Notes under the pieces: model-generated
Told to the model about the DNA's origin: nothing
The model's database searches: none
What the model saw: the letters and a program-made list of their open reading frames with translations, nothing else
From: Caryophanales bacterium
GTDB lineage: Bacteria > Bacillota_I > Bacilli_A > Izemoplasmatales > UBA1188
Length of the DNA stretch: 64,000 nucleotides
Assembly: GCA_016287865.1 (NCBI GenBank)
Contig: JAEEXP010000002.1
Span: forward strand, 1 to 64,000
Direction: 5' to 3'
Made by a program: the position numbers and the translations under genes
Shown here: positions 20,780 to 23,226 of the stretch, in pieces
How positions within the stretch are numbered: the stretch's first letter is position 1
Layout of the letters: every line of letters begins with the position of its first letter

Positions 20780-21219
20780 ACTAGAGTCTTCAATTTGAAC
20801 TACCGAGGATTCCTCGGTTGTTGAGTCATCTAATTCTTCCCCCCCAAAAAAATTAGTTCTACATTTTTGCCAAATACTATTTCTTCAACATTTGCCCATT
20901 TTCTAAATTGAGTGCCGCGATTCGAATAGACCCTATATCCTATAGCAATAATCATATCGAGATTATAGCATTTTACATTGAATGTTTTTTTCATCAGAAG
21001 CAGTAGTTCGGAAATTCCGAACAACTGAATCGTCTAACTCATTTTCTGCAAAAATATGGTTAATATGTTCACTTATATTTACTTTAGATGATTCAAATAA
21101 AGAACATATTTGCTTTAGGCTTAACCATACAGTGTCTTACTCAGGTTCTATCCTCACATCTAGACAAACTTCCCATATTAAATTTGATTAAATCGTATTT
21201 CTTTTCTTCATTTTGCATG
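20780..21219 (-). pseudogene. Decayed RhuM-family gene (third copy, tandem after 21208-22071)
   Basis: Minus-strand MQNEEKKYDLIKF..., CYNLDMIIAIGYRVYSNRGTQFRKWAN, EEIVFGKNVELIF match the intact paralogue but are split by frameshifts/stops and internal deletion. Confidence 0.85.
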
Positions 21220-22071
21220 TTTATGTACTCTTTTTAATATTTCGTTTTTATTAAAGCTTTCGACTTTTATAATACTAAATCTTTTCTTGCCTATACTATT
21301 TATAGAAGTTCCAAGTATGTAAACTAAATCATCCACAATAATATATCTATCGTGAAAAATGTTAGTGTGTATTATTGTAATATTGCTTGGAACTTCTTTA
21401 TTATTTAAATAAGAAGAAGGAGAAGTAATGATAGTCGTCTTTACTTCTACGTCTTTAAGCATAGTCAACAAAAAGTCATCTGCATAATTATCGATAATTA
21501 TTAATTCTTGTTTGGCTAAGAAGAATAACTTTCTTATAAGTGTATAAGGTTCAAAAATTTCTCCCTCAAATATGATTTCTGCGTTTTTACCAAATATAAT
21601 TTCTTCTGCGTTGTTCATTCTTGATTCTAAAGCATTATATTTATTCTCTAAACTAATTAGATTAGTTGAACAAGATAAGCATCTTTCTTCGTTGATAACG
21701 TGACCTTTAAGCAAGAACTCTTTTAATATGGAGTTTGCCCATTGCCTGAATTTAACTGCAATTTTTGAGTTTATTCTATATCCAACTGATATAATCATAT
21801 CGAGATTAAAATATTTAACATTACGTTTGATAACACGATTTCCTTCAACTTGAACTTTTTCCAAAACGGAAATAGTTGAAGTATTTAGTTCACCATCATT
21901 AAGTATATTTGAAATATGCTTACTAATAGCAGGCACATTAACACCAAACAATTGTGCAATTTCATCTTGTGTTAACCATACAGTGTCATCATTTGGTTCG
22001 ACTCTTACATCTAGGCTAAACTCCCCATCTTCAAATTTGATTAAATCGTATTTCCTTTCCTCTTTTTGCAT
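21208..22071 (-). CDS. RhuM-family protein with N-terminal Bro/Rha-like DNA-binding region and C-terminal PLD/ORF6N-associated-like domain
   Basis: GGAGG RBS; DDTVWLTQDEIAQLFGVNVPAISKHISNI...YFNLDMIISVGYRINSKIAVKFRQWANSILKEFLLKG; C-term IIIDNYADDFLLTML...FHDRYIIVDDLVYILGTSINSIGKKRFSI. Confidence 0.85.
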   Translation of the reverse strand: MQKEERKYDLIKFEDGEFSLDVRVEPNDDTVWLTQDEIAQLFGVNVPAISKHISNILNDGELNTSTISVLEKVQVEGNRVIKRNVKYFNLDMIISVGYRINSKIAVKFRQWANSILKEFLLKGHVINEERCLSCSTNLISLENKYNALESRMNNAEEIIFGKNAEIIFEGEIFEPYTLIRKLFFLAKQELIIIDNYADDFLLTMLKDVEVKTTIITSPSSYLNNKEVPSNITIIHTNIFHDRYIIVDDLVYILGTSINSIGKKRFSIIKVESFNKNEILKRVHKHAK

Positions 22072-22088
22072 ATTTATTTCCTCCTTTT

Positions 22089-22178
22089 TTAGCAAAATAA
22101 AAGCCCTATCGAGTATTTCTCAATAGGGCTTGAGTTAATTAGATTTAGTTGTAGCAATTTAATCTTTTTCTTTTTCAT
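22089..22178 (-). CDS. Putative 29-aa leader peptide MKKKKIKLLQLNLINSSPIEKYSIGLLFC
   Basis: GGTGGT RBS and TATAAT upstream; reads through the hairpin and stops 17 nt before the RhuM ATG. Confidence 0.5.
   Translation of the reverse strand: MKKKKIKLLQLNLINSSPIEKYSIGLLFC
22092..22131 (-). promoter_or_regulatory. Terminator-like hairpin in RhuM leader (putative attenuator)
   Basis: Minus strand AAGCCCTATTGAG-AAATA-CTCGATAGGGCTT followed by TTATTTTGC. Confidence 0.6.
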
Positions 22179-22209
22179 AATTACCACCACTTTGATTATA
22201 ACATATTAT

Positions 22210-23226
22210 TTATCTTCCGAACACTTCGTTAAATAATTCTGGGTCATCAGTCATTATGCAGTCAGCGCCAAGTTTAGCCAAATGTTCCATTTCATCTCTA
22301 TCATTAATAGTCCAGAATTGAACGGCTATTCCTCTTTGATGTGCTCTTTTGATGATGGTTTTTCTATCTAATTTTAGTTTAGTAACTTTAATATTAAAAG
22401 AAGTAGGAATTTGAAGACATGCGAAGTCAGCTTTACATAATAGATTAACTCCAAATAATTGAGTTAGAATAAATCCGGCTGCATCTCCAACTGAGGCACC
22501 ACGAAGTAGTGTTGGATGTGTTTCTTTTAAGTATTTTGATATTTCATCGTGGAATGTTCCAATAACTACTCTAGATTTATATTTAGGGAAATAACTAGTT
22601 AAAAGATTATTTAGAATGTCAGCGGCTTTCATTCCTTCTTCGCCACCATTCTTAATTTCAACTATAAACATTAATGTAGGATTTGTTTCATAGAATTCGT
22701 TAAATAATTCTTCAACTTCAAGAATTTGAAGATCATTAGCTTTTAAAACTTCTTGTCTATTAGCTTGATCAACGGATACAAGATTCTCGTATGGTCGATT
22801 TCCGTTTTTGTCTTCAAAATTATAACCAAAGTTAAAGTTTTTAAGTTCTTCTAAAGTGTAATCAGCGATATAGTGTTTATTTGTTGAATCATCAAATAGT
22901 TGAACATCACTCATTCTATCGATATATCCATCATGTGAATATACTAAATATCCATCTTTAGTCATCCATAAATCTGATTCAATAATATCGATATGATAAT
23001 TGTTTACTGCGGCCTTATACGCTTTAAGCGTATTCTCAGGATTATTTAGTGAGCCTCCTCTGTGAGCCGCCAGCATGGGTATATCACTATTCTCATTAAT
23101 AAATAGATTATCTTTGAATGCTTTTCTTGGTGGAATAATATTCACTAAAAAGAAGAATAGTGCGAGTACTCCAACTATTGACGCTAATATTATTAGTCCT
23201 TTTTTATATTTCTTTCTTTTACTCAT
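22210..23226 (-). CDS. Glycerophosphodiester phosphodiesterase family protein, N-terminal TM
   Basis: IPMLAAHRGGSLNNPENTLKAYKAA...IIESDLWMTKDGYLVYSHDGYIDR; QFWTINDRDEMEHLAKLGADCIMTDDPEL. Confidence 0.93.
   Translation of the reverse strand: MSKRKKYKKGLIILASIVGVLALFFFLVNIIPPRKAFKDNLFINENSDIPMLAAHRGGSLNNPENTLKAYKAAVNNYHIDIIESDLWMTKDGYLVYSHDGYIDRMSDVQLFDDSTNKHYIADYTLEELKNFNFGYNFEDKNGNRPYENLVSVDQANRQEVLKANDLQILEVEELFNEFYETNPTLMFIVEIKNGGEEGMKAADILNNLLTSYFPKYKSRVVIGTFHDEISKYLKETHPTLLRGASVGDAAGFILTQLFGVNLLCKADFACLQIPTSFNIKVTKLKLDRKTIIKRAHQRGIAVQFWTINDRDEMEHLAKLGADCIMTDDPELFNEVFGR

Follow-up and report, generated by a model that had tools for sequence, protein, structure and literature searches.

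This study describes a leader module directly upstream of an intact RhuM-family gene in the window (the whole stretch of 64,000 nucleotides that was analysed), in which a short open reading frame (ORF) with its own Shine-Dalgarno (SD) sequence runs into an intrinsic terminator. Comparison of its copies across the genus shows that the arrangement is more than chance: the short SD-bearing ORF is maintained, and its frame always leads into or past a terminator that is maintained as well. A real switch that depends on ribosomes is very probable, and we consider it fairly probable that the module controls RhuM, a candidate defence gene, as a transcription attenuator dependent on translation. This reading is well supported as conserved anatomy, and from it we infer the direction of control (translation meaning ON) and the existence of a releasing signal. 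A previous description of this DNA, the sequence-only reading, had titled the module a translational attenuator; its layout stands, but the wording does not, because the layout described is that of a transcription attenuator depending on translation. The elements that it listed (TATAAT, GGTGGT, an ATG, a 29-codon ORF passing through a 13-bp hairpin and a stop 17 nt before RhuM) are all exact in the sequence. Its attenuation reading is upheld in so far as a conserved leader ORF and a terminator occur together in RhuM's own 5' leader, and relief of termination by the ribosome stays a prediction.

Anatomy of the leader module and the genes behind it

All features of the locus lie on the minus strand (Table 1). 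The leader ORF extends from its ATG at 22178 to a TAA stop at 22091-22089, ahead of the RhuM ATG at 22071. The hairpin, at 22131-22101, has 13 pairs, a 5-nt loop, a folding energy of -19.6 kcal/mol and the tail TTATTTTG. The stop codon of the phosphodiesterase gene lies 31 nt upstream of the leader ATG. The TATAAT of one copy alone would be weak evidence for a promoter because the sequence is AT-rich; the aligned copies have -10-like boxes 5' of the leader ATG, with an identical TATAAT in G002_C5, G004_C292 and G002_C26.

Table 1. Features of the RhuM locus in the window
Feature	Position	Strand	Evidence
-10-like TATAAT, probable RhuM leader promoter	22195..22200	-	sequence; without a good -35
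Leader ORF Shine-Dalgarno GGTGGT	22183..22188	-	anti-SD duplex -8.8 kcal/mol
Leader ORF, 29 codons, MKKKKIKLLQLNLINSSPIEKYSIGLLFC and stop, with conserved [QK]LN motif	22089..22178	-	frame conservation
Intrinsic terminator hairpin, 13 bp, within leader ORF	22101..22131	-	fold and compensatory changes
U tract, one interruption (TTTTATTTT)	22094..22102	-	pattern kept across copies
RhuM Shine-Dalgarno AAGGAGG	22080..22086	-	sequence
RhuM-family gene, 287 aa, PLD-like C-terminal half	21208..22071	-	PF13310 9.8e-23; PADLOC PDC-S05 2.7e-71
Decayed second RhuM copy, internal stops; its ATG overlaps the end of intact RhuM	20830..21216	-	
Glycerophosphodiester phosphodiesterase gene, upstream, co-directional	22210..23226	-	PF03009 2e-33

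The RhuM family is widespread, has no known function and figures among the phage-defence candidates. The gene in the window matches PF13310 with 81.2 bits against a cut-off of 33.7, and its C-terminal half looks like a PLD fold, with matches to NucT and TrmB in a low-confidence structure model (pLDDT 65). G005:C4 and G002:C29 likewise carry double RhuM genes, in tandem or fused. RhuM copies are often found at contig ends (G006:C9, C3, C32 and C8; the start of G000:C85, and C86; G002:C29), as expected because repeated, recombining genes break assemblies. The DUF1016 (YhcG-like) gene fragment behind the module at G006:C29 matches PADLOC PDC-S02. By their PADLOC database labels, RhuM (PDC-S05) and DUF1016 (PDC-S02) are thus candidate single-gene phage-defence families.

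Conservation of the hairpin and of the leader frame

Covariance models recover about 12 copies of the module in six of the seven genomes examined for the genus, only G001 being without any, and the genes behind these copies are RhuM genes, one DUF1016 (YhcG-like) gene and one gene of unknown family. The first model, R1, was built from five loci: the window, C15, the C85 edge, G005:C4 and G003:C132. C15 carries a RhuM paralogue in the same genome, with a hairpin and gene start common to both (90% DNA identity); the beginning of its leader differs from that in the window, yet it has a strong SD of its own (-10.9 kcal/mol) and an ATG in the same frame, and the shared part of the leader shows only synonymous changes (AAT/AAC, TAA/TGA). 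G003:C132 is the orthologous locus, where the single change in the leader is again synonymous (TTG/TTA), and variant hairpins lie ahead of RhuM at the C85 contig edge and G005:C4. Matches to R1 precede RhuM at G006:C8, a RhuM remnant at G002:C5, a DUF1016_N gene at G006:C29 and a 101-aa gene of unknown family at G000:C50:40688, with a further match at the contig end of G004:C292; a second model, R2, adds G002:C26 and G006:C32. An exception is C50:8883 with its G003 orthologue, where the hairpin precedes RhuM and follows an aldolase gene, without an SD-bearing leader ORF.

Two side observations concern these loci. At G003:C132 (2608-2868, L040) RhuM is cut down to 86 aa and the leader module is kept. 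Behind the 101-aa gene of G000:C50 (L166, 1960-2200) there are three imperfect tandem hairpins with an attC- or REP-like look (gtcggctacgaagc...atcaccgac; accggtatcgaactc...caaccgg; gtcggctacgacacc...atcaccgac), separated by the direct repeat aattattcata..tcaaataaaaa.

Beyond these copies, covariance-model matches in other genera of the order were weak, lacked a leader frame and were judged to be chance; viral contigs matched neither the hairpin pattern nor RhuM, and the remaining DUF1016 genes whose upstream regions could be seen lack the module. A search of Rfam for riboswitches, T-boxes and other leaders gave two sub-threshold matches only, neither on the module. Among RhuM homologues outside the genus (Bacteroidales, Clostridia and others), a terminator-like hairpin is nearby in 5 of 62, in every case more than 80 nt from the start.

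The hairpin itself is strongly maintained. Across ten copies 96.6% of its pairs are kept and 7 of 12 pairs show double changes, compensatory changes being what the sequence-only reading had proposed to look for in relatives, together with a conserved leader ORF. The covariation score exceeds that of every shuffle and collapses once the partner strand is slid. The interrupted U tract, TTT[AC]TTTT, is found in 9 of 10 distinct copies, compared with 12% of the hairpins of the genome. The same reading had named, as results that would speak against it, a lack of conservation of the frame or hairpin and a hairpin that merely ends the transcript of the upstream phosphodiesterase gene. Neither was found. 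Frame and hairpin are conserved, and the upstream gene is divergent at five other loci (C15, the C85 edge, G005:C4, G002:C5 and G004:C292), and the hairpin there is therefore the downstream gene's own leader terminator. The hairpin as a phosphodiesterase gene terminator was rejected on account of these divergent neighbours; a close orthologue of that gene occurs only in G003. Two other candidates were also rejected. A promoter inside the hairpin (TTGAGA-18-TATTTT, 22123-22094) would lose its -10 in the variant hairpins (TTCTTTT, TATTTTT). As for an insertion targeting terminators, the aldolase genes of RhuM-less relatives have other terminators, and the inserted genes share no 3' end.

Evidence for the leader frame comes from several directions. 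Between the ATG and the hairpin midpoint, the ten aligned copies contain no stop codon in the leader frame, as against 33 in the +1 frame and 29 in the +2 frame; the frame reaches into or past the terminator in all ten, and the distance from ATG to stem stays within 45-56 nt. The added copies were picked by sequence and structure, R1 giving no score to the frame, yet the frame is present in them. In all ten copies searched for it, a [QK]-L-[NY] motif lies in frame (G006_C29 is without the motif), and the codons of [QK]LN vary synonymously, with CTA, CTT or CTC for Leu and AAT or AAC for Asn. When the upstream 110 nt are shuffled, an ORF with SD and ATG reaches the loop by chance in 1.9% of cases for the window, and the rates at the four loci so treated are 1.9%, 1.8%, 0.4% and 0.03%. 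Within 14 stretches of G000 plus the window (about 340 kb, 140 intergenic terminators), an intergenic leader ORF with SD and ATG runs into the stem at only two terminators, those ahead of the RhuM genes of the window and C15, and at 0 of the other 138. Two of the ten copies have a weak SD or an unusual start: the leader SD is weak in G006_C8, and C85_edge starts, in the alignment, with ATT or else with an ATG that lacks an SD. Because the copies are related, these counts are not fully independent.

These observations bear on two simpler explanations. One is that the hairpin is a mere terminator or insulator, either of the upstream gene or guarding an inserted gene, and that the ORF is accidental. 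This compact genome has many terminators directly 5' of genes, the upstream gene in the window is co-directional, and the leaderless hairpin behind the aldolase gene at C50:8883 would fit as well; the five divergent neighbours, the conserved frame and the scarcity of leader ORFs at other intergenic terminators nevertheless disfavour this explanation already, and we regard it as very unlikely. The other is that the leader encodes a small functional protein, for example an antitoxin-like one, with the hairpin just separating the levels of two genes. The short conserved motif would suit such a product. However, the leader peptides vary in length from 20 to 50 aa and have no Pfam match, and their C-terminal halves show no relationship from one copy to the next, since each frame enters the hairpin in its own way, so that a functional peptide seems extremely improbable.

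Proposed mode of action

In the proposed attenuator, transcripts from the leader promoter would by default mostly end at the hairpin, leaving RhuM off. If, by the time RNA polymerase arrives at the U tract, the 5' arm or the loop is covered by a ribosome that began at the leader start, the hairpin would be kept from forming and RhuM would be transcribed. No competing antiterminator was seen in folds of the module. Initiation on the leader may itself be limited by base-pairing between its SD region and the codons that precede the stem; support for this step is weak, with a combined Stouffer z of -3.3 and few copies significant singly.

How closely the ribosome follows RNA polymerase is important here. 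The distance from stop codon to terminator has been used as a proxy for runaway transcription (PMC7858274). In the 14 G000 stretches and the window, the median distance from the upstream stop codon to the start of the terminator is 6 nt, and 70% of terminators start within 12 nt, a spacing that suggests runaway, that is uncoupled, transcription in this lineage. Terminators placed in the first 100 bp of an ORF mostly retain their function in E. coli, where translation cut the efficiency of one located 30 bp into an ORF by only about 10% (PMC4824070). Given these two lines of evidence, a trailing ribosome alone may not suffice. Because the genome looks uncoupled, with terminators close to stop codons, the ON state probably needs pausing or slowing of RNA polymerase, or a ribosome stalled near the [QK]LN codons just 5' of the stem. 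A broader proposal, which we consider quite improbable, is that the module acts as a portable sensor that compares the speeds of RNA polymerase and ribosome in an uncoupled bacterium. RhuM and DUF1016 would then be off since the leader ribosome usually lags behind RNA polymerase, and would come ON if transcription slows, for instance when nucleotides run short or a phage takes over RNA polymerase, or if the ribosome stalls at [QK]LN.

Stalling could also be the whole of the mechanism, a specific signal halting the ribosome just 5' of the stem and so preventing termination, as in antibiotic-inducible attenuators. Candidate signals would be a drug, amino-acid or tRNA shortage, or nascent-peptide arrest at [QK]LN. 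The motif remains in frame, close to the stem, with synonymous changes, and coupled RNA polymerase would not be required. However, the leaders have no single-codon run, the rest of their peptides differ, and [QK]LN may partly be kept for RNA pairing, so that we think this explanation quite unlikely.

The main rival to attenuation is post-transcriptional and, in our view, unlikely. A leader ribosome would melt the hairpin and the pairing between U tract and SD on readthrough mRNA and hand over to the RhuM start, by translational coupling or reinitiation, with the terminator merely setting a low basal level. The short distance between leader stop and RhuM ATG in the window, the overlap of the leader with the next start in G006_C8 and C50b, and the ability of the U tract to pair with the RhuM AGGAGG, possible in readthrough RNA, are all in line with it, and it suits an uncoupled organism. 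In C85_edge, G005_C4, G006_C29 and G004_C292, however, the leader stops within the hairpin, far from the next start, and coupling by itself does not explain why a strong terminator is conserved along with the frame.

A conserved candidate ribosome-dependent attenuator common to RhuM and DUF1016 suggests that both stay silent until a physiological signal releases them, and the leader start, the hairpin and [QK]LN offer concrete handles for finding that signal. The module also poses a test of leader-ORF attenuation in bacteria of a lineage with terminators that seem made for runaway transcription.

Comparison with known attenuators

The sequence-only reading knew of no such description for RhuM-family genes, and among the papers searched likewise none was found on attenuation of RhuM. 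The module differs from amino-acid attenuators of the trp/his type, as neither a regulatory codon run in the leader peptides nor a competing antiterminator in the folds was found. It resembles vmlR and bmrC of B. subtilis (PMC9226507, PMC4191407), also in Bacilli, in having a uORF, an intrinsic terminator and an SD-sequestering structure, there with a resistance gene that is off by default. vmlR, however, uses mutually exclusive anti-antiterminator, antiterminator and terminator stems, whereas the RhuM uORF runs into the terminator itself. Closer is pyrBI (pyrL) of E. coli, the next nearest system, in which a leader ORF acts similarly on a terminator, although it is proteobacterial and pyrimidine-specific. 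The pyrBI leader ORF spans its terminator, and the system senses UTP via pausing in a U-rich stretch. According to the passage of PMC5021804 that cites Roland 1988, leader translation tightly coupled to RNA polymerase prevents formation of the pyrBI terminator. The sequence and gene content of the RhuM module show no U-rich pause stretch before the stem and no pyrimidine gene downstream.

The nearest proven mechanism is that of pil1 in Streptococcus gallolyticus, likewise Gram-positive, with the same promoter, SD, short leader ORF and intrinsic terminator. When the pil1 leader stop lies within or beyond the terminator the locus is ON, readthrough arising from ribosome-induced destabilisation of the stem, and mutations of the RBS/ATG or of the terminator act as predicted (PMC3894217). 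Features of its own are the phase-variable GCAGA repeats that shift the stop codon, and a pilus operon as target rather than a defence-candidate gene; by inspection, the RhuM leader sequences contain no tandem repeat. The likeness is one of layout, and what the RhuM module has in common with pil1 and pyrBI is an SD-bearing leader ORF between promoter and gene, a frame that runs into or past the terminator, and the placing of both in the gene's own leader.
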